28,491 nucleotides of DNA. It comes from a virus. The stretch lies in the IMG/VR virus record IMGVR_UViG_3300010885_026192, positions 1 through 28,491 of that record. One strand, written 5' to 3'. The notes beneath the pieces were generated by a model. It saw only the letters and a list, made by a program, of their open reading frames with translations. It made no database searches and was not told where the DNA came from. Positions 1,948 through 24,280 of this stretch are shown in pieces (the stretch's first letter is position 1; each line of letters opens with the position of its first letter). The position numbers and the translations under genes were made by a program.

Positions 1948-2288
1948 GCGGCCTCCCGCTTGCGCGATTCGGCAATAAGCAGCCAAAGCTGGGCGAGCGT
2001 TTTTATGGGCGCAACCTTGCCGTCATACCCCGCCTCCATGGCTTTTTTGCCCATGTTGTTTTCTTGCACGTACCACTCTAGCCAATTGCCAAAGTCGCCC
2101 ACCTGAGATTCGAGCAAGGTGGTGTAGGCGTCAAATAGCTCCCACACGGTGGTGTGTAGCGGGCCTTCGACGGCCAGTCCGATAGACTTTTCGACTCCGC
2201 AGAACAGGCGGTCCACGGCTTCGCGGTGGGCTTGCCATTTTGTGAGCATGGCAAGGGTTTGTTTTTTGTCGGGGTATTGTGTGGGCAT
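1944..2288 (-). CDS. Hypothetical phage protein in lysis operon
   Basis: A 114-aa soluble protein, acidic to neutral and probably helical (MLTKWQAHREAVDRLF near the start; LFDAYTTLLESQVGDFGNWL in the middle; LAQLWLLIAESRKREAA at the end). No signal peptide or membrane segment is visible and I do not recognise a catalytic motif. It overlaps the methylase stop at its start (TAATG) and the i-spanin start at its end (ATGA), so it is translated as part of this chain. Similar small proteins occur beside phage methylase or lysis genes; I can give no function. Confidence 0.75.
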   Translation of the reverse strand: MPTQYPDKKQTLAMLTKWQAHREAVDRLFCGVEKSIGLAVEGPLHTTVWELFDAYTTLLESQVGDFGNWLEWYVQENNMGKKAMEAGYDGKVAPIKTLAQLWLLIAESRKREAA

Positions 2289-3415
2289 TACGCTGCTTCC
2301 ATAGCAAATAAATCAGCGGTGCCGGTCACGCGCTCGGGCACGCAATGCGGGCTGCACCACAGCGTTTCACTGGCGCTGTTGGCCACGGCCTCGTCGGTCA
2401 GGGCATAGCCCTTGCGCGCGGTCCAGGTGCGCAGGTGCCAGCCTTGGCCCAGCAGGGCGTCATGCTCACCCGCGTGGCCGCACAGCACGATGCGCAGGGC
2501 GGGGTTAGCGCCATTGGCAGCGCACCAGGCGCGCACGTCGTCGGCAATGCCTAGGCCCATGCCGCCCGCGCTGTAGTCCATGGCGCCCTTGGCGTAGGGA
2601 GGGTCTAAAAACACGCCGGTCAGGCCGTGGCGAGTTGTCACGGAATCCTTGACAACTCGCTGCCAGTCGCCACACGTCACCCGCACATCACGCATGCGCT
2701 CGTGCAGCGCGCCAAACCAGCCGAAAATGAATTGACGGCGGCCCCGCCCGGCGTCGCCCAGGTGCGGAAGTTGCCGGTTGATGCCCCGCCCGGCGTCGCC
2801 CAGGTGCGGAAGTTGCCGGTTGATGCCCCGCCCGGCGTTGCCCAGGTGCGGAAGTTGCCGGTTGATGCCCTGCCCGGCGCTTAGGTGCGGAAGTTGCCGG
2901 TTGATGCCCCGCCCGGCGCTTAGGTGCGGAAGTTGCCGGTTGATGCCTTGCCCGGCGTCGCCTTTGACGATGCGCTCGCCGTCGTGCACCCATGGCCCGG
3001 TGCCGCTGCACCAGCCTGAGCCGATCCAGTTGCAGGCGCCCCAGCACCACCACCCGGCAATTTTGGCGTCAAACCAGTCGGGCTCGGCGTGCAGGCGCTC
3101 GGTGAGGCTTTGGGTTTGGCGCACCAGCCAGCTATGGCGGGCGAACAGGTCAACCTCGTTGCACGGCCAGTCGGCATGATGCGCTACGGCCTCGGGGTCG
3201 GCGGCGATGGCGCGCCAGAAGTTGGCGACAAAGCCGTCAAAGTCGTTAAGCGTTTCGATGCGCTTGCCGTCTGGTGCGCCCAGCAGCATGGCGGCGCTGC
3301 CCGCGAAGGGCTCTACATAGTTGGCCACCTCGCCAAACGCCGCCCACACCGGTTCAACGGCGCCAGACTTGCCGCCAAACCAGGGGAATGGGGCTTGTAG
3401 CGGAGCTTTGCTCAT
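2288..3415 (-). CDS. DNA adenine methylase (D12 class) with internal peptide repeats
   Basis: A 375-aa SAM-dependent N6-adenine methyltransferase of the Dam/D12 type, which would methylate phage or host DNA late in infection. PWFGGK (residues 11-16) and VEPFAGS (34-40) form the SAM-binding elements and DPPY (271-274) is the catalytic motif IV. Between them, where the target-recognition domain is expected, residues about 152-224 hold five near-identical 13-14-residue repeats (GRGINRQLPHLGDA type). The repeats keep frame and the flanking motifs are intact, so the enzyme is probably functional. It sits between endolysin and spanin genes with overlaps on both sides. Protection against restriction is the most likely role; the recognition site cannot be read from the sequence. 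Confidence 0.9.
   Translation of the reverse strand: MSKAPLQAPFPWFGGKSGAVEPVWAAFGEVANYVEPFAGSAAMLLGAPDGKRIETLNDFDGFVANFWRAIAADPEAVAHHADWPCNEVDLFARHSWLVRQTQSLTERLHAEPDWFDAKIAGWWCWGACNWIGSGWCSGTGPWVHDGERIVKGDAGQGINRQLPHLSAGRGINRQLPHLSAGQGINRQLPHLGNAGRGINRQLPHLGDAGRGINRQLPHLGDAGRGRRQFIFGWFGALHERMRDVRVTCGDWQRVVKDSVTTRHGLTGVFLDPPYAKGAMDYSAGGMGLGIADDVRAWCAANGANPALRIVLCGHAGEHDALLGQGWHLRTWTARKGYALTDEAVANSASETLWCSPHCVPERVTGTADLFAMEAA
2745..2960 (-). repeat. In-frame tandem repeat array in the methylase gene
   Basis: A 26-bp core (AGGTGCGGAAGTTGCCGGTT followed by GATGCC on the plus strand) occurs at 2760, 2802, 2844, 2883 and 2922. Spacings are 42, 42, 39 and 39 bp, all multiples of three. The array encodes five GxGINRQLPHL units joined by GDA, GNA or SA linkers. 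Confidence 0.95.
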
Positions 3416-4181: not shown

Positions 4182-4597
4182 TTTGGCAACACCTTGTCAA
4201 GCACGCGCTCTAGTGCTGCGGGTATGCGCGCCAACACGCTGTCAAGCAGCGTGGTCAAAATGCGGCCGATGCCGTAGCCAAAAAACGCGCTTAGGCCGTA
4301 CAAGGCCAGTTGGTCTTCGGTGGCCAGCCAGCGCGCGGCATACGTGGCCAACAGGGCGCCCAACAGGCACGACATGCCAAACGCCAGCAGCGCGCGCAGC
4401 GTAGCCCGGCTGTTGGCGTCTGCCGCAGGCGGCGCGGTGGTGGCAATGTTGTAGGCCGCACCGACGGCGGCCCAGACGATGGGGGGCGTCTCCAAGCCAA
4501 TCCATTGGCTTGTGAGCGCCGTTGCCGCAGCAAAAGTGGTGATGGCGTTGGCGGGCTTGCCCAGCATGGCAAACAAAACGACCGATAGTATTTTCAT
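4178..4597 (-). CDS. Membrane protein, holin or antiholin candidate
   Basis: A 139-aa protein with hydrophobic segments at the amino end (ILSVVLFAML), mid-protein (ALLAFGMSCLLGALLATYAA) and near residue 100 (LYGLSAFFGYGIGRIL). The carboxy end is a basic amphipathic tail (LERVLDKVLPK). It overlaps the hydrolase stop by 4 bp and is followed by another membrane protein and the M15 endolysin, so this pair probably controls inner-membrane permeabilisation. Which of the two is the holin cannot be told from the sequence. Confidence 0.7.
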   Translation of the reverse strand: MKILSVVLFAMLGKPANAITTFAAATALTSQWIGLETPPIVWAAVGAAYNIATTAPPAADANSRATLRALLAFGMSCLLGALLATYAARWLATEDQLALYGLSAFFGYGIGRILTTLLDSVLARIPAALERVLDKVLPK

Positions 4598-5157
4598 TCA
4601 GGCGCCTCCAAGTCAGGTGGGTAAATGGTGTCCCGGCGGGGGTTGCTGACGTGGCGCAGGGGGCTGTACCACTGCATAAGCGCGGCGTCGAGCAGGCCCT
4701 GGGGCGTGACGACCGCAGGCTGTTCGGCAAACTTGATTTGCTTGCAGCGTTGCAGCACAGTGAGCGCGTATTCGGCGCACTGGCCCGCCGCGTCGTTGCC
4801 GATGGTTATGCGACCGATCCCACCCATCACGGCCTGCCAGCGCGAATAACTCCACTCGCCAAACAGGCTTTGGGCGTACCACAGGGCCTCGCGGCTCAGG
4901 GGCTGGGGCGCGGGCGCCCAGGCAAAGTCGCCGGTGAGCGAAAGCAGGCGCGGGGAGCAGCCGCGCGTGGTCATCTCCATTACCCACACCCTGCCACCTT
5001 CGCGCCAGGCCAGGCCGACATGGATGTACGGAGAAAAAGTACCCAAGCGCACGAGCCAGCGCTCGATGATGCGCAGGGGCGCGCCGCCCTTGTGGTTGCG
5101 CCAGAGCAGCAGGTCGCCGGTTTTGATTTGGGTGCGGATGTCGGTGTAGTGGGTCAT
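4594..5157 (-). CDS. Permuted NlpC/P60-like (YiiX type) cysteine hydrolase
   Basis: A 187-aa protein fitting the circularly permuted papain-like fold of the YiiX group. It begins with a KTGDLLLWRN strand (residues 12-21), has the catalytic His46 in SPYIHVGLA followed by an acidic residue in WVMEM, and the nucleophile Cys127 comes later in AGQCAEYALTVL. The order His then Cys is the reverse of classical NlpC/P60 enzymes. Substrate may be peptidoglycan or a lipid or amide bond. It is the first gene of the lysis chain, after a 54-bp gap, and overlaps the holin-like gene, so a second cell-wall activity or a virion-associated role is plausible. Confidence 0.75.
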   Translation of the reverse strand: MTHYTDIRTQIKTGDLLLWRNHKGGAPLRIIERWLVRLGTFSPYIHVGLAWREGGRVWVMEMTTRGCSPRLLSLTGDFAWAPAPQPLSREALWYAQSLFGEWSYSRWQAVMGGIGRITIGNDAAGQCAEYALTVLQRCKQIKFAEQPAVVTPQGLLDAALMQWYSPLRHVSNPRRDTIYPPDLEAPE

Positions 5158-17214: not shown

Positions 17215-17781
17215 TTAGCCCCACACCTTGTAACGGTCAAGCAGGCGGTCGGCAAAGCCCAGTGCATGCGTCTGCACTTTGCCTTCGGCCTGCCGGTTTT
17301 CAAACATGGCGCCCACTTGCAGCAATATCCAAGACTTGATGAGCTCGGGCACGGCGGCGGCGTTGGCGTAGCCTGCGGTGTAGGTCACGGCCACGGCGTT
17401 GACTTGATCGCGCGTATCGGGCCAGCTCGTGTCGTAGGCGGGCACCAGGTAGGCGTAGCCGGTGGCGTCGGCATTGTCTAGGGTGTAGAGGCTGCTGGCC
17501 AGGGTTTGCAGCACGCCGCTGGTGTCGGTGTATTGCACGCTGGTGATGCCCACGGCTGGCACGCGGGTGAGCTCAAAGGCCTCGGGGAAAGCGTCAAGCG
17601 TGAGCTGCCAGGCCTGCGGCATGAGCACGCGGCCCATGGCGTGCTCTGCGGACTCGGTGGCAGCACCTATCAGCATGGTGATGAGGGCGTCTTCGGTGTC
17701 AACGTCCACGCGCAGGTGGGCTTTGGCCTCGGCCAGGCTGACTGCCAGGGCGCTGGGGGCGACTATGCGTTTAAGGGACAT
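17215..17781 (-). CDS. gp6-like head-tail connector
   Basis: A 188-aa protein of the HK97 gp6 / phage QLRG family: LAVSLAEAKAHLRVDVDTEDALITMLIGAA at the start, QAWQLTLDAFPEAFELTRVP mid-protein, and AVAVTYTAGYANAAAVPELIKSWILL near the end. It would form a dodecameric ring beneath the portal. Its place between the appendage cassette and head closure gene is as expected for HK97-type morphogenesis. Confidence 0.92.
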   Translation of the reverse strand: MSLKRIVAPSALAVSLAEAKAHLRVDVDTEDALITMLIGAATESAEHAMGRVLMPQAWQLTLDAFPEAFELTRVPAVGITSVQYTDTSGVLQTLASSLYTLDNADATGYAYLVPAYDTSWPDTRDQVNAVAVTYTAGYANAAAVPELIKSWILLQVGAMFENRQAEGKVQTHALGFADRLLDRYKVWG

Positions 17782-17787
17782 GGGCGG

Positions 17788-18114
17788 CTACTTTCTGCGC
17801 CCGCCGGTGTTGGCCGGGCGGGTGCTGGTGTGGGTCTGGGCGCTGCGGTGGGCGGCGGTGGTAATGGGTCTGTCGGTGGCTGGGCTGTCTGAGCTGTATG
17901 GGCGAATGCTGTTTTGGGGCTGCGGGCGGTCAACTGCTTGCAGTGCCATGGCGCGGGCGGTGGCTGGGCTGCCTGGGCGCGCGGTGGGCGCTGCGGCTGG
18001 GCGCGCGGTGGTGGCTGCGGGGCGCTGGCCTGCCAGTGCACCGGCAATGCTTGTTATCTGCCCCCATGCGTTGCCCCAAGCCTTGCCCCAGGCCCTGCCC
18101 CATGCGCTGGCCAA
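17788..18114 (-). CDS. Small Trp-Gly repeat phage protein of unknown function
   Basis: A 108-aa protein beginning with four AWG units (MASAWGRAWGKAWGNAWG), followed by a Pro/Ala/Thr-rich, probably disordered, basic tail ending GRRK. Small phage proteins with AWG-type amino ends are common next to head-tail connector genes, but their role is not known to me. The 12-bp DNA periodicity of the AWG region is visible near 18061-18108. Genes abut on both sides. Confidence 0.65.
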   Translation of the reverse strand: MASAWGRAWGKAWGNAWGQITSIAGALAGQRPAATTARPAAAPTARPGSPATARAMALQAVDRPQPQNSIRPYSSDSPATDRPITTAAHRSAQTHTSTRPANTGGRRK

Positions 18115-18657
18115 TTAAGGCCCCCAGGGGTCGATTTCGGTACCGCTGCCGCTGATGGTGTAGTTGTTAACCTTGACCACATTGACGGGCGGCGGGGCGG
18201 CGGCCATTTTTGCCAGCGTGGCCTCTGCTATTTCCTCAGCCGTAGGCCCGGCGCCAGTGGCTACTTCGCGAATCTCGTACTTGGCAAAGTCCACCACGAT
18301 GTTGATCTCTACGCCCACGCTCAAGGGCGCCAGGTCAAAGCATTCGGCGTTGGCGTAGCCGTCATCGGTGTAGGTGTCGCGCACCAGGGTGAGGGTGTGC
18401 GATCCGTTGTAGGGCACCAGGCGGCAACCGCGCAGCAGCTTGGCGGCGGCGGCGGTGTAGGTGAGGCCGGTGATTTTGGGGGCGTTGCCTGCGGCGCTGA
18501 TGATGGGCGTAAAGCGACGCTGGGCGGGCGTGGACTTGCGCAAGGCCAGCACCTCACGGTACACGGCCAAGGTGTCTAGCGTGCTGCCGCTGGCAGCGCT
18601 GGCGGCGCTTAAATAGATGCGGCGCGCGGTGTAGTCCACGCTGGCGACCAGGGCCAT
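18115..18657 (-). CDS. Conserved phage structural protein, appendage-associated
   Basis: A 180-aa protein beginning MALVASVDYTARRIYLSA, with TLDTLAVYREVLALRKS, LRGCRLVPYNGSHTLTLVRD and ATGAGPTAEEIAEATLAKM. I have seen this pattern in small phage proteins that accompany large beta-rich fibre-like proteins. It has no membrane or catalytic motif. Its place directly after the 1070-aa beta-helix-like gene and one other small gene makes it a likely partner of that protein, perhaps an adaptor or virion component. Function is inference. Confidence 0.7.
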   Translation of the reverse strand: MALVASVDYTARRIYLSAASAASGSTLDTLAVYREVLALRKSTPAQRRFTPIISAAGNAPKITGLTYTAAAAKLLRGCRLVPYNGSHTLTLVRDTYTDDGYANAECFDLAPLSVGVEINIVVDFAKYEIREVATGAGPTAEEIAEATLAKMAAAPPPVNVVKVNNYTISGSGTEIDPWGP

Positions 18658-18660
18658 GGC

Positions 18661-18993
18661 TTAGCTGCCTTGCACCACGTCGCCCACGGCGTTGATGGCG
18701 GTGTGGGGTATGTCTTGCACCATCCATCCCTTCACAAACTCGCTGATGGCCAGGCCTACGCCTGCGCCGCTGAGGGTGATCGACTGGCCGGTGATAGGGT
18801 CGGTGATGGTGACGGTGTTTTGCGCAAATTCGTCAAATTTGCGGCTGATGTTCAGCACGCGGTCTATGATTTGCACGGTTTGGTAATCGGCGTCTTTGAT
18901 GACCACTTGCACGGTGACGTTGGTCCACACGGGCAGGCCCTCGCGGGGCATGTCCAGGGTCATGCGCTGGGCGCGGAGTTTTTTGGTGCTCAT
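18661..18993 (-). CDS. Conserved hypothetical protein, appendage cassette
   Basis: A 110-aa protein (KKLRAQRMTLDMPREGLPVW; VQVVIKDADYQTVQIIDRVL; ITLSGAGVGLAISEFVKGWM), predicted mixed alpha/beta, soluble, with no recognised family. The start overlaps the stop of the large beta-helix-like gene by 4 bp, so the two are translationally coupled. Probably part of the same structural unit. Confidence 0.65.
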   Translation of the reverse strand: MSTKKLRAQRMTLDMPREGLPVWTNVTVQVVIKDADYQTVQIIDRVLNISRKFDEFAQNTVTITDPITGQSITLSGAGVGLAISEFVKGWMVQDIPHTAINAVGDVVQGS

Positions 18994-21900
18994 TGGTTGT
19001 AGTCCTGCTCAAGTGCGGGGCTGATGGTGGAGGCCGCGCTGGGCGTGATGAGGGAGGCGCCGTACTCAAGATAGTTGTTTGCAAGGATTTGCAGCCACAC
19101 GGTATTGCCCGCAGCGCCGTAGTAGGTAAAGCTGGCAGCCGGGCACGAGGTGGTGCCCGCAAGCACGGTGCCCAGGTCGCCATTGGCCGCGCTGTCTTGG
19201 TCGTAAATGTGCACCTGCGCGCCCAGCAGGGACACGGTGGGCGCGATGGTGAGCGGGGCGCGAATGCCGGTGCTATCAGACAAGATGCCGGTAAACGCCG
19301 TGGTGTTGCCAGCGGTGATGGCCGCAGTGGACAGCAGGCCGCTGCCCATGGTGACGCCGGGGGCGAAGGCGCTGCCCGCGTTAAGGGTGAGCGTGCCGCC
19401 TGCCAGCGCCCACGGCGCGCCCGTGGTGGCCAGGGTGACGGGGTAGGCACCCACGCTGCAAAAGCTACCGGCCTTGGCAGCCACGCGGGCGGTGGCGATG
19501 CCGCCTGCCGTGGTCTCAAAGTAGGCGGCGTAGTCATACACCCGGTCGGGGTTGCCTAGCACGGTGTACGCGGCCACCGTGGCGGCGGTGGACTGGGTGA
19601 TGTTGGGGTCGGTGGCCAGGGCAGCGGCCACGGTGGTGCTGGCGGTGGCCGGGGTGTGCGTGCCGGTCTGGGCGGTGGTGCCGTAGCGGGCGATCTTAAA
19701 CGCCCAGGTGCCGGTGCCGCCGGTGGTGTCTAGGGTGTAGCTGGTGCCGCTGCTGGCCACAAAGTCCACCTGCGTGCCGCTGGCGTTGGCTACGTAGATG
19801 CTGCTGCCTGCGGTAAGGCCCGTGATGGTGAAACTGGTGACGAGCTGGGTGACTACGTTGGCGCCCACGGTGCCGATGGTGGCGCCGCCTGCCCGGCGCA
19901 CGGTGACTAGGGCGGTGCCGGTGTTGCTGATGGTGCCAGTGACGGTGCCGCCGGTCATGGTGACGGTGGTGGGGCTGTTAGTGGCGTGCGTGAGGTCGCC
20001 ATCGATGGTGACGCCGGTGCGCGCCGTGGGGGTGGCCTGCAGCACATCGCCCACCAGTGCAATATCTGCAAGCGCTGCACTTAGCGTAAAGGCCGGGGCG
20101 GTCAAGGTGCCGCCTGTCAGTGCGCCAACAATGGCCACATTGGCCGCAGTTGTAAAAATCTTGCCGTCGCCTGAGGTCAGGATGGGCGCTAGGCGGTTGC
20201 TGGCCTCGTATTGCTTGGTCCAGTCGTACACCTCACGCAACGTGCGCGCGCCAAAAGTGAACGTTCCGGCGGCGTAGGCGACGTCAGTCAAGGCAGCGGC
20301 GGTCGACTCGGATAGCTGCACCACGGGATCAACTGTAAGCGTTGGGCTGGTGGGCGCATACGTGTAGCCGTAGTGCTGCGACCAGTCAATCCAAGGATTG
20401 ACCGACATGCCCGAAAACCAATAATTGCCCGTGCCAAGTGTGGCCGTTGTCTGGCCGCTTATAGCGACTATCAGCAGGCCGGTGGTCGTGGGCGTGACTG
20501 TAATCGTGCCTTGATAGTCGGTGGCCGCAGTGCCTCCCGCCGTAAAGGTCTGGGGCGTAATGCCAAGGCCCGACACGGTGACGGTAGGCGGCGTGGCCGT
20601 GCCATAGTTGGCATCGTAGCGCAGGCCAAAGCGGAAGATGTAGGCAACCCCTGCCGATGCGGCTACGCTAAATGTGTAGCCGTGGGGCGTGTTTGCAATG
20701 TAAGGAGAAAACCGGATTGAGCTGCGCGAGCGAAGGAGTTGCGCGTTATCTCGGATGATCGAGCCGGTGTTTAGGTAGATTTCCTGTTGTGTTGGATCGC
20801 CGTTTTTGTTAAGTGTCGTAACAGGCTTGTTGACAAGTGCGTTTTGATATGTTGATGGCAATACCACTGGCGTTGCTGGAAGTGCACAGTTATTAAAATT
20901 TAGGGTAGATAAAGAGTTATTACTATTGAAAAGCAATTGCGTACTATTTAAAAATCCATAGGTTTGACCAAAAGAACAATTATCAAATGTGTAATCGCCT
21001 TGCAAAATACCTAGTAAATGGTTTGAACCATCCATAGTGACGCCGTCCATTGAAAAACCAATCATGGATGCTCCATTATTGAGATTATTATTATTAGTAA
21101 TTCGACCGTTAACTATCTTGCAACCCACACCGCCTTGCGAAAATTGACTAAAAATTGCGCCATAAACACCACAAAAAAATGCGTTATTAAAATAGCCTGT
21201 ACCGCCCTGAGATGTGTAAACTGCGCTCAATCCGCTGCTGTATCCCTGCCTTGAATACACAGTTGGATAAGTCCAATTTCCTGAATAACCATATTTAACT
21301 CCTAAAAGTGCGTTAGCCCCTGCTGCGTTTGTACCATCAGGTAGTAAGTCGCAAGCTGCAATATTGTCCAAAATACCTAGTGGTGAATTTGCAACTGTTA
21401 CAGCGTTTGTGCCTGCAATACCAAAACCGCCACTATCACCTTGCCCATAAAGCCCGTGAGTAGCTACATGCTTGATGTTAATTGTTGCCGCAGCTTGCGT
21501 AGTCTGACAAAGAACTAGCACATACGCACCAAACGAGCCGGAGTACGATTGCCACAAAACATTGCTTGATAAGTTTCCGCCCCAAGCACCGGCTAGTCTT
21601 GCGTTTACTAATCCTGTTGTCCAACCGACTACATTGCCGGACACGCTAGTTAAAACTCGATGCTCACGTTGCGTTGCCGTTGTGTTAGTTGCTTCAATAA
21701 AGATAATATCGCCAACAGCCCAACCCGTAGCATTGCTCACTGTAATGCTTGTTGCACCCGCAGAGATTGCCGCAGCAACTTGAAACTGACGATTGCGTGT
21801 CGCACCCACCTCTGACCACTCCGCAAAGCGAGTTGTTGCGCCCCAGCTAATGTTGTATTTGCTGTTGGCGAGCGTGGCTGAATAATTTGTTTTTACTATA

Positions 21901-22202
21901 GATGTAATACCCGATGGTATTGGCGAGGCAATAGTGCCTCTACGCCATACGGCATCTGTACCGCTGTTTACCAAAGTGCCTTTTAACGTCAGGCTGGTGT
22001 TGACAGTTGTTGAGAATATGCAAGAGCCAGCAACCGTCAAAGCTGCTGTTGCTGTGTCATTGCCCCAGATGTGGGTGCCGGTAATCGTGACCGCGTGGCC
22101 TACGGCGATAGTTACGGTATCGCCCTCAACGGGAACTACACCCCCCACCCAAGTGCTGCCCACATTGGACAGGCCCGACTGCGCTGATGTAATTGCTGCC
22201 AT
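18990..22202 (-). CDS. Large G8/beta-helix-like virion protein, possible head fibre
   Basis: A 1070-aa protein rich in Thr, Ser, Gly, Ala and Asn. The first 60 residues resemble a G8 domain (STWVGGVVPVEGDTVTIAVG). Residues about 200-480 are Asn/Gly-rich with short alternating strands, as in right-handed beta-helices (FDNCSFGQTYGFLNS; KIVNGRITNNNNLNNGASMI). The carboxy half has repeated TLTAPAFTLS and GGTVTGTISNTG strands. No signal peptide is seen. It lies in the head module, between the capsid and connector genes, far from the tail-tip genes, which suggests a capsid- or neck-attached fibre. DNA from about 20700 to 22050 is lower in GC than the rest. A polysaccharide-binding or degrading role is possible; no catalytic site is identifiable. 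Confidence 0.75.
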   Translation of the reverse strand: MAAITSAQSGLSNVGSTWVGGVVPVEGDTVTIAVGHAVTITGTHIWGNDTATAALTVAGSCIFSTTVNTSLTLKGTLVNSGTDAVWRRGTIASPIPSGITSIVKTNYSATLANSKYNISWGATTRFAEWSEVGATRNRQFQVAAAISAGATSITVSNATGWAVGDIIFIEATNTTATQREHRVLTSVSGNVVGWTTGLVNARLAGAWGGNLSSNVLWQSYSGSFGAYVLVLCQTTQAAATINIKHVATHGLYGQGDSGGFGIAGTNAVTVANSPLGILDNIAACDLLPDGTNAAGANALLGVKYGYSGNWTYPTVYSRQGYSSGLSAVYTSQGGTGYFNNAFFCGVYGAIFSQFSQGGVGCKIVNGRITNNNNLNNGASMIGFSMDGVTMDGSNHLLGILQGDYTFDNCSFGQTYGFLNSTQLLFNSNNSLSTLNFNNCALPATPVVLPSTYQNALVNKPVTTLNKNGDPTQQEIYLNTGSIIRDNAQLLRSRSSIRFSPYIANTPHGYTFSVAASAGVAYIFRFGLRYDANYGTATPPTVTVSGLGITPQTFTAGGTAATDYQGTITVTPTTTGLLIVAISGQTTATLGTGNYWFSGMSVNPWIDWSQHYGYTYAPTSPTLTVDPVVQLSESTAAALTDVAYAAGTFTFGARTLREVYDWTKQYEASNRLAPILTSGDGKIFTTAANVAIVGALTGGTLTAPAFTLSAALADIALVGDVLQATPTARTGVTIDGDLTHATNSPTTVTMTGGTVTGTISNTGTALVTVRRAGGATIGTVGANVVTQLVTSFTITGLTAGSSIYVANASGTQVDFVASSGTSYTLDTTGGTGTWAFKIARYGTTAQTGTHTPATASTTVAAALATDPNITQSTAATVAAYTVLGNPDRVYDYAAYFETTAGGIATARVAAKAGSFCSVGAYPVTLATTGAPWALAGGTLTLNAGSAFAPGVTMGSGLLSTAAITAGNTTAFTGILSDSTGIRAPLTIAPTVSLLGAQVHIYDQDSAANGDLGTVLAGTTSCPAASFTYYGAAGNTVWLQILANNYLEYGASLITPSAASTISPALEQDYNQ

Positions 22203-22298
22203 CTACGCGCCCTCGTACACCGTGACGGTGCTCACAATGTCGCCCGTGGCGGGGTCGGTGTTGGCGGTGGTGTACATGGTGGGTGCAGTGAGCGGCAT
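22203..22298 (-). CDS. 31-aa ORF upstream of the fibre-like gene
   Basis: Starts with ATG at 22298 and ends with a TAG that directly abuts the next ATG at 22202. The product (MPLTAPTMYTTANTDPATGD, then IVSTVTVYEGA) is soluble and has no recognised family. GAGGG at its 3' end could serve as the ribosome-binding site of the large gene, so it may act as a coupling leader. Its own ribosome-binding site is weak. Confidence 0.5.
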   Translation of the reverse strand: MPLTAPTMYTTANTDPATGDIVSTVTVYEGA

Positions 22299-22369: not shown

Positions 22370-22792
22370 TTAAACCGGTGGGTTAACCGTGGGCACCAGG
22401 GCGGGGTGGCCCAGCAGCGCAATGGCGCTGATCAGTGCTGCGGATGCATTGGCGCTGGGGGTAATGGTCAGCCGCACATAGCGCTTGATGCCCCGGTAGC
22501 CGATCTTGCGGGTCTCGTTGTCGTCGTCGAACTGAAAACCGGCCAGCGTGGTGGTGCCCAGCAGCTCGGCAGCAGGCACGGTTGCGGCGTCTGACAAGTT
22601 GGATGCAGAGCCGTGGTCCATGGTGACGGAGAAGGTGGCATCAGCGTCGGCAATGGAGCCCAGCGCGATCAAGAACGTGAGGCTCTCGTAGCCTTGGCGG
22701 TCGATGATGGCGCCAACTTGGGCGGTGTTGTCAGCCACGCTGACGGGGGAGATGGCGCGCACGGGGTGCACCAGGTTGAACAAGTCTTTCAT
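22370..22792 (-). CDS. Capsid-adjacent conserved phage protein
   Basis: A 140-aa protein (DLFNLVHPVRAISPVSVADN; AIIDRQGYESLTFLIALGSI; AAELLGTTTLAGFQFDDDNE; YVRLTITPSANASAALISAI). The beta-rich pattern recurs in small proteins placed after capsid genes of betaproteobacterial and other prophages. AGGA lies upstream of the start. It stands alone between two hairpins (22315-22346 and 22832-22864). A head decoration or stabilising role is possible from position but not shown. Confidence 0.7.
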   Translation of the reverse strand: MKDLFNLVHPVRAISPVSVADNTAQVGAIIDRQGYESLTFLIALGSIADADATFSVTMDHGSASNLSDAATVPAAELLGTTTLAGFQFDDDNETRKIGYRGIKRYVRLTITPSANASAALISAIALLGHPALVPTVNPPV

Positions 22793-22909: not shown

Positions 22910-24280
22910 TTAGGCCGAGAACTGCATCAGCTTGACGGCTTCGAAGTTGATGACACCGCCACCAAAGCGGCGGCGGAAGTTGTACTTGGTGACGCCTTTG
23001 CTGGTGACGTTGTCGCGGATAACGACGGTGCCGGTGCGGTTGACCACGGCGTAGGCCTGGGCAATGTCGCCGTAGGCAATGCTGAAACTGGCGCTGGCGA
23101 TGTCTGGCATGTAGTCGTCAAGCTCAACGGGGTTGCCCAAGATGCGGCCGGAAAAGCCGCTCAAGGGGTCCGGCTGCCACAGGTAGTAGGCGCCCGAGCC
23201 GTCCTTCATTTGGCGCACTTTGGCCAAGCTGCTGTCGTTGGTGACAAAGGCGGCGTTACTGCGGTATTGGCGCTTGAGGCTGTGCTGCAGGTCAATGAGC
23301 GCGTCACCAGGGGCTGTGCTGGCAAAAGCGCCGGATGCGCCAGACTTGACAAAGCCGATTTTGCCCCAGGCGTAGCTGGCATTGGCCACCGTGCTGTAGC
23401 CCAGCAGGCCGCGCGCCTCTTGCACACCGGTGCCGCTGACAAACTCGGTGCCAGCCAGGTCGGCGAAGGCCATGCCAGCCTCCATGGACAGGTCGGCCTC
23501 GATGTTGTAGTCGGCATCGTCAAGGGTTTCGTTTTCGACTTGCGGCTCGGTTTCAGCCGTGAACACCGGGATTTCGATGTAGCCAAACTTGGGCGTGTCG
23601 GACTCGCCACCAGTGCCGCCGTTTTTGATGCGGCGCGCGGCCATGCCGCTGGTTTTGACGCGCTTTTTCCACATATCGGTACCGATGGTGACTTGGCGGG
23701 CCAGGTTGGCGATGCCGCTGCTTTTTCGCACCAGCTCAAGAATGGCGGTGTCCATCTCGGTGGTGACAAAGATGCCGCCGTCGGGCACGCTGGAGCTGTT
23801 GTAGGCCTTGACGCCGTAGGCCTTGCGGTGCAGGGCGGTGAGGTCTTCGGTGCTTTTGCCGGTGCGGATGAAGGTGCTGACTGCGGCCTTGTATTCGGCT
23901 TGCTCGGGCGTGATGCCCTTGCCGTCGCCACCCGTGCCGGGGCGGTTGGCTTTTTTGGCCATTTCGACCAGGTCGGCGTTGAACTTGGTGAGGTCGGCGT
24001 TGATTTTGTCAACGGTGGCCTGTAGGTCAGTCAAGGACTTGCCGTCAGCTTTGGCTTTGAGCAGTTCGTCGTTTTTGCGCATGAACTCGCCGTAGGCGTC
24101 GTTATGCTTTTGCAGCATTTCCTGGATGCCTTTGATGTCCATTTCGCCTGCCATACCAACGGCGGCAAGGCCTGCAAACATTTCAGGCGGGATGATGGGG
24201 TTGCCAGCGAGCGCGAACACTGCGGCCACAAAAAGCAGGCTGACCAGCGCCCAGGTGAAGGTCGTTCGAGAGAGTTTCAT
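22910..24280 (-). CDS. HK97-fold major capsid protein with hydrophobic N-terminus
   Basis: A 456-aa phage_capsid family protein. A helical delta/scaffold domain spans about residues 47-120 (MDIKGIQEMLQKHNDAYGEF; DLQATVDKINADLTKFNADL). The HK97 fold follows (SSSVPDGGIFVTTEMDTAIL; NGGTGGESDTPKFGYIEIPV; LQHSLKRQYRSNAAFVTNDS; LDDYMPDIASASFSIAYGDI; FRRRFGGGVINFEAVKLMQF). The adjacent protease should remove the delta domain. Unusually, residues 1-45 form a hydrophobic, signal-like segment (FTWALVSLLFVAAVFALAG). The start at 24280 has AAGGA about 8 nt upstream. A later ATG at residue 47 would give a conventional capsid start but has a poor ribosome-binding site. Confidence 0.92.
   Translation of the reverse strand: MKLSRTTFTWALVSLLFVAAVFALAGNPIIPPEMFAGLAAVGMAGEMDIKGIQEMLQKHNDAYGEFMRKNDELLKAKADGKSLTDLQATVDKINADLTKFNADLVEMAKKANRPGTGGDGKGITPEQAEYKAAVSTFIRTGKSTEDLTALHRKAYGVKAYNSSSVPDGGIFVTTEMDTAILELVRKSSGIANLARQVTIGTDMWKKRVKTSGMAARRIKNGGTGGESDTPKFGYIEIPVFTAETEPQVENETLDDADYNIEADLSMEAGMAFADLAGTEFVSGTGVQEARGLLGYSTVANASYAWGKIGFVKSGASGAFASTAPGDALIDLQHSLKRQYRSNAAFVTNDSSLAKVRQMKDGSGAYYLWQPDPLSGFSGRILGNPVELDDYMPDIASASFSIAYGDIAQAYAVVNRTGTVVIRDNVTSKGVTKYNFRRRFGGGVINFEAVKLMQFSA

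Follow-up and report, generated by a model that had tools for sequence, protein, structure and literature searches.

The cyanophage Syn5 carries knob-like proteins on its capsid, and its horn is located on the vertex that lies opposite to the tail (PMC10575957). The Syn5 genes gp53, gp54 and gp55 are adjacent and are located near the terminase gene rather than between capsid genes. By immunogold electron microscopy, Raytcheva et al. in 2014 reportedly assigned gp53 and gp54 to the horn, and Gipson et al. are said to have identified the knobs as gp55 and gp58 in 2014. Antibodies against the horn reportedly failed to block Syn5 infection, so that an adhesive role is putative even for Syn5. The head fibers of phi29-type phages and of phage 7-7-1 offer a likeness of class only (attachment to the head), and family scans of our locus showed no homology to them.

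We analyzed a virus record of 28,491 bp (the window, which means the whole stretch of DNA), in which the genes for TerL, portal, protease, capsid, connector, tail and J protein are all on the minus strand. Judged from sequence comparisons, the four genes at 17788-22202 are probably an adhesin cassette of the horn type that attaches to the head and has exchangeable beta-helix heads. The cassette appears to have been inserted in a slot that is bordered by the capsid-side genes and by the gene for the head-tail adaptor. The features of the locus are, in window coordinates:

17215..17781, minus strand: head-tail adaptor, gp6-like (phrog_442, E 5e-27), right border of the slot
17788..18114, minus strand: WG-repeat protein, 108 aa, TTG start, N-terminus MASAWGRAWGKAWGNAWG
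18115..18657, minus strand: 180-aa protein, Syn5 gp55-like family (tail strong, body weak)
18118..18192, minus strand: C-terminal tail of the 180-aa protein, VNVVKVNNYTISGSGTEIDPWGP (identity to the fiber tails of L141 and L145, pairing with WG)
18661..18993, minus strand: 110-aa protein, in the place held by a gp53-like gene in other loci
18990..22202, minus strand: putative large appendage protein, 1070 aa, with a mobile beta-helix module and a Syn5 gp54-like C-terminal part
19146..19691, minus strand: Syn5 gp54-like region, aa 838-1019 (phmmer E 4e-6)
20307..22202, minus strand: mobile low-GC N-terminal module, aa 1-632 (blastn end and GC3 break)
20373..20825, minus strand: CBM4/CBM16-like jelly roll, aa ~460-610 (Foldseek; approximate, inferred boundaries)
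20823..21815, minus strand: predicted right-handed beta-helix body, aa ~130-460 (model and Foldseek)
21960..22154, minus strand: G8-like segment, aa 17-81 (Pfam G8, E 0.03)
22203..22298, minus strand: leader ORF, 31 codons, MPLTAPTMYTTANTDPATGDIVSTVTVYEGA, its stop abutting the start of the large gene
22370..22792, minus strand: 140-aa protein (phrog_5707), left border of the slot
22910..24280, minus strand: major capsid protein (Phage_capsid, E 4e-55)

As described in an earlier note on this DNA, the ORFs for the 1070-, 110-, 180- and 108-aa proteins are present and are situated between capsid-side and connector genes, with the Phage_capsid gene and the 140-aa gene on one side and the head-tail adaptor on the other. 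Further neighbors were recognized as head closure, portal (phrog_12), protease and TerL. The claimed coupling of the large gene to the three small genes agrees with very tight packing: the 1070-aa and 110-aa ORFs overlap in ATGA, the 110-aa and 180-aa ORFs are 3 nt apart, and the TTG start of the 108-aa ORF is immediately 3' of the TAA of the 180-aa ORF. The proposed 31-codon leader ORF was also found (22298-22203), with its TAG immediately 5' of the ATG of the large gene; as a coding sequence it is putative, and it possibly serves translational coupling with the large gene. Genes directly upstream of large-protein relatives often finish in short hairpin-like strands, to which the 31-codon ORF bears a loose resemblance. 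The search for relatives of the 110-aa protein revealed none. The phage encodes a separate tail-tip J protein and a tail fiber. The late region also harbors a DNA methyltransferase gene (2288-3415, minus strand; phrog_56) and a 187-aa ORF (4594-5157, minus strand) with a weak enoyl-CoA hydratase-like match (phrog_1128, E 1e-6), and an ORF at 2-499 looked integrase-like by eye.

The large gene has a mosaic structure. In codons 1-632 the GC content is 49% and GC3 is 46%; this part is joined sharply to a remainder with a GC content of 67% and a GC3 of 83%; GC3 was 73-82% in all other late genes checked. Blastn similarity to loci L004, L005 and L006 stops at nt 1895-1898 of the large gene, which is the position of the GC3 break. 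The N-terminal module, with the G8-like, beta-helix and jelly-roll parts, is mobile, since copies with 72-87% identity occur in environmental phages that are unrelated. The low-GC interior that had been noted earlier is thus real as a low-GC stretch, but it comprises the first ~632 codons and is therefore N-terminal. The start of the protein had been called G8-like. The window protein reaches 14.6 bits and stays below the gathering cut-off of 22.9 for G8 (PF10162), but 13 of 24 relatives match G8 at E ≤ 0.01 (best 1.6e-6). Many other proteins match only the first 40-90 residues, so that the G8-like start behaves as a portable cap. Members of a ~820-aa family from nine loci have mainly the first ~40 residues in common with the large protein and a different body; judging by this family, the G8-like cap is widely reused.

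An AlphaFold model of the large protein, built on an alignment of 24 sequences, was mostly beta (mean pLDDT 74.8), with poor quality for residues 909-1070. Foldseek matched it to the phage tailspike beta-helices 4ru4, 5w6h and 9k4a (E ~1e-8, best 7e-9), to the G8-containing TMEM2 ectodomain 8c6i (E 7e-6) and to the CBM4/16 jelly rolls 3jxs, 2zez and 1gui (E ~1e-3, target TM 0.4-0.6); since global TM scores were low (0.1-0.2), these matches indicate the fold type only. The model and the tailspike matches bear out the beta-helix body that had been suspected from the sequence. The larger part of this body is swapped in relatives L033 and L044, where conservation (41-46%) covers residues 1-~220/250 and ~465-965, with a replaced middle between them; the jelly roll is kept in relatives. 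A predicted right-handed beta-helix fold is shared, by Foldseek, with the tailspike depolymerases LKA1 gp49, CBA120 TSP4 and Klebsiella phage K64-1 S2-4, but the window protein has no detectable sequence relation to them and its gene is in the head module. Similarly, a G8-like N-terminus precedes the beta-helix as in TMEM2/CEMIP-type proteins, but here the setting is a phage and the G8 copy is a sub-threshold one. A depolymerase role would be compatible with the predicted tailspike-like fold and CBM-like jelly roll. For the 180-aa protein, modeling gave a poor result (pLDDT 60), in which no fold was recognized. The profile search of solved structures retrieved only a tail-tube domain for the large-protein family (profile positions 134-204) and nothing for the 180-aa family. 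The small domain in question (aa ~134-204, window 21591-21803) is similar in sequence to chain 9n71_B, a phage tail-tube protein of solved structure (E 1.6e-4).

A member of the 180-aa family in locus L163 matched Syn5 gp55 with E 3e-10; the best E value between gp55 and this family was 4e-23. In the window's 180-aa protein the tail is clearly common with the gp55-like family, and the tail-less body matched weakly, with 12.4 bits versus a maximum of 6.1 in 1000 shuffles. For gp54, the match to the large protein scored 31.0 bits, whereas 1000 shuffles of residues 826-1035 reached 4.4 at most; the similarity amounts to 25-31 bits and is partly inside the low-confidence model region 909-1070. Fibers of three other loci (L114, L147, L100) matched gp54 with E 1e-21 to 1e-31. 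An iterated gp54 profile gave E 2e-56 and was set aside, because the profile includes the window protein and the value is circular. Among the protein models in BFVD, the Syn5 structural protein A4ZRD5, with 622 aa as long as gp54, was the ninth match of the large protein (E 4e-10). The top match was A0A6J5RNC9 of an uncultured Caudovirales phage, an uncharacterized protein with 78% identity over 1072 alignment columns.

No gp53 homolog was found among the window proteins. Genes of ~450 aa in eight other loci matched gp53 with E 1e-44 to 1e-87, and a partial gene in L148 with E 6e-26. A search alignment of four gp53-like members (a version with nine was too diverse) retrieved 194 relatives; of the 67 non-redundant gp53-like loci in which another gene follows, 64 have a gp55-like gene there. 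On the upstream side of these Syn5-like triads of gp54-, gp53- and gp55-type genes, the products include portals, tail-fiber and collagen-like proteins; on the downstream side they include proteases as well as major head and head-morphogenesis proteins. Many of the fibers upstream of gp53-like genes end in a DRNY-type sequence, as does Syn5 gp54 (LDRQYNNPV); the end of the window protein is looser (LEQDYNQ). The gene order in L042 is portal, large-protein homolog, gp53, gp55, with weaker gp53/gp55 matches in L013/L015, and in L035 a large-protein homolog is fused with a gp53-like part. The window resembles the Syn5 gene set in its gp54-like part, in the gp55-like tail of its 180-aa protein (whose body matches weakly) and in a contiguous arrangement apart from the tail fiber gene. 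It differs in that it lacks gp53, adds the G8/beta-helix/CBM module, the 110-aa protein and the WG partner, and has these genes between capsid and adaptor genes and not near the terminase gene. The cassette is probably a variant form of the horn/knob appendage, a type that is on record but has seldom been described. The large protein would be a two-part fiber: an N-terminal module for receptor binding, acquired horizontally and made up of the G8-like start, the tailspike-like beta-helix and the CBM4/16-like jelly roll, would be placed on a C-terminal assembly part related to gp54. This assembly part and the 180-aa protein would together build the appendage.

The slot itself varies between related phages. 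It is empty in Bradyrhizobium ppBeUSDA76-1, ctuI7215 and Desulfofustis MD02, where capsid and/or 140-aa-type genes are followed by the connector gene, and also in five loci that have the capsid and/or the 140-aa gene in common with the window (L150, L154, L157-L159). Two small genes occupy it in Azospirillum phage Cd. L141 has a different fiber of 1414 aa in the slot and L145 the end of another such fiber (1034 aa, partial); both have the WG gene in common with the window, and their adaptor is 70-76% identical. The last 41 residues of these two fibers are 56-58% identical to the tail of the window's 180-aa protein. The empty relatives and the swaps in L141 and L145 show that the slot is either empty or filled by exchangeable fibers that retain the tail.

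We searched for genes encoding SAWGxxWGxxWG independently of the tail. In 31 of 39 non-redundant cases with an N-terminal WG repeat, the upstream neighbor ends in a GxG..DPWGP-type motif; in three of the rest it has a near variant, and three have no upstream gene in the available stretch. In the reverse search, independent of WG, the motif GxGTExDPWGP was always ≤1 residue from the C-terminus. Of 27 non-redundant cases, 24 were followed by a WG gene, and two of those left have WG/FG variants. The tail on the last fiber-type protein and the WG repeat on its successor are mutually predictive. The proteins preceding the WG gene range from 91 to 1414 aa. Because the frame offset from the tail to the WG gene is variable, we ruled out that the 180-aa and WG proteins are fused by read-through or frameshifting. 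As far as tested, the pair is absent from Pfam and PHROGs: none of 33 WG proteins had a PHROG match, and the 108-aa protein matched no Pfam, PHROG or Tfa family. A direct homolog of Syn5 gp53, gp54 or gp55 is present in 17 of 37 loci with WG and tail. In cultured phages the consensus tail peptide had no match and the consensus WG peptide one marginal match (E 0.4), a possibly WG-like 137-aa protein in ctUtU524 (MW202621, L191, 3562-6438), flanked by the gene of a 720-aa hypothetical protein on one side and by minor capsid/MCP genes on the other. In six loci, tandem virion-like proteins of 170-370 aa with FGWG/YGYG-type ends precede the DPWGP-tailed gene.

The 180-aa protein would be a gp55-type knob or adaptor with a C-terminal docking tail (GxGTExDPWGP), and the 108-aa protein the constant partner of this tail, either as an anchor of the appendage on head or neck or as an assembly factor. 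Tfa-type chaperones are classically encoded by a small gene just downstream of a fiber gene. A WG protein that assists fiber assembly from outside the virion would fit the direct succession of fiber and WG gene and the short, variable WG bodies, but the identical tail/WG pair accompanies many unrelated fiber-type proteins and no Tfa family was matched. We consider a chaperone rather unlikely; it would be compatible with an adhesin cassette as the reading of the remaining genes.

Relatives of the large protein recur in head modules. Its first ~700-800 residues have 72-78% identity to proteins in three IMG/VR contigs, and in a fourth the first 89 residues are 87% identical before the gene is cut by the contig end. 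UZZ64504 of Curvibacter phage PCA1, annotated as hypothetical, shows 31% identity over residues 1-700 and differs in its C-terminal third; its gene is located between portal and protease genes. A profile search yielded 126 matches, of which 80 were kept, and their neighbors were scanned with PHROGs. Upstream we found terminase, portal and head-tail adaptor families, also tail-fiber and endolysin families, and downstream major head protein, protease and scaffold. A portal gene is (nearly) directly upstream in ten loci, one of them with phrog_332 (L027), and downstream of the homolog in L035 and L015, and in L008 at a distance of 6 kb; a capsid gene is a few genes away in six loci. Outside recognized head modules are the homolog in L020, which is beside tail-type genes, and ten further ones without an assignable position. 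The portals beside the relatives belong to phrog_113, 145, 156, 332, 1216, 2662, 3753 and 12082, which with phrog_12 of the window makes nine families. Such different portals mean that the gene was acquired repeatedly at similar places, not within a single lineage. No relatives emerged from bacterial genomes, which were scanned with the alignment of the large protein and with the adaptor, or from cultured phages, for which the queries were the 110-, 180- and 108-aa proteins and the C-terminal third of the large protein. The terminase large subunit gene in L007 (32-2263) has an apparent intein, the insertion starting after GGGGGGK and ending with VTHNTWS. Just upstream of the fiber slot, the C-terminus of portals and small adaptors is often a short, hairpin-like sequence, RDxxGxxxxV, as seen in eight loci, and these ends may be a second docking element.

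A tail-attached fiber or tailspike, with its gene merely located in the head module like an ectopic side tail fiber, would account for the tailspike-like beta-helix, for the homolog of the N-terminal module near tail-type genes in L020 and for the neighbor annotated as 'tail fiber protein' upstream of the PCA1 gene. It is nevertheless improbable: the phage already owns a J protein and a tail fiber, the homologs occur in head modules of phages whose portals differ widely, and gp54, to which the C-terminal part is similar, is distinct from the Syn5 tail fiber gp46. Equally improbable is a neck or collar whisker at the portal/connector in place of a vertex horn or capsid knob. The genes adjoin the portal or head-tail adaptor in many loci, and in the window as well as in L141 and L145 the WG gene is immediately before that of the adaptor, but the homology is to genes of the Syn5 horn/knob region and no known whisker families were matched in the scans. 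A non-structural moron or lysogenic-conversion gene set, suggested by the foreign GC of the N-terminal module and the absence of the set from close relatives, is very hard to reconcile with the head-gene strand, the tight spacing with head genes and the fact that the Syn5 homolog carries a structural annotation.

The suggestion of the earlier note that this is a little-described head or neck adhesin cassette is supported by the gp54 homology, the gp53/gp55 link and the recurrent position in head modules, and the cassette is probably located at the head; the depolymerase part of the suggestion is compatible only. Gene position alone is no proof of the attachment site, which may be the capsid vertex, the capsid surface or the neck. 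In a horn-type cassette the imported beta-helix/CBM module would face outward and bind surface polysaccharide, with the tail-tip J protein as the primary adsorption device. The virion would then carry a second, head-borne carbohydrate-binding device besides J, which may raise encounter with and attachment to polysaccharide-coated hosts. More tentatively, the loci may belong to a general, as yet unnamed head-appendage system, which would comprise a portal/adaptor-linked slot, exchangeable beta-helix fibers related to the Syn5 horn and a portable tail/WG docking pair.

To our knowledge, the Syn5 horn has so far been regarded as a peculiarity of one cyanophage. The occurrence of horn-type gene sets at a head-gene position in many unrelated viruses implies that many phages may carry a gripping structure on the head. 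Since sets homologous to the horn genes are found between portal and capsid genes of unrelated environmental phages, their function becomes testable in culturable prophages. If tail and WG repeat form a docking pair, they would provide a portable mount for foreign fibers on virions and a marker for such appendages, which are unannotated in PHROGs and Pfam. The wide occurrence suggests that head-borne adhesins are common.
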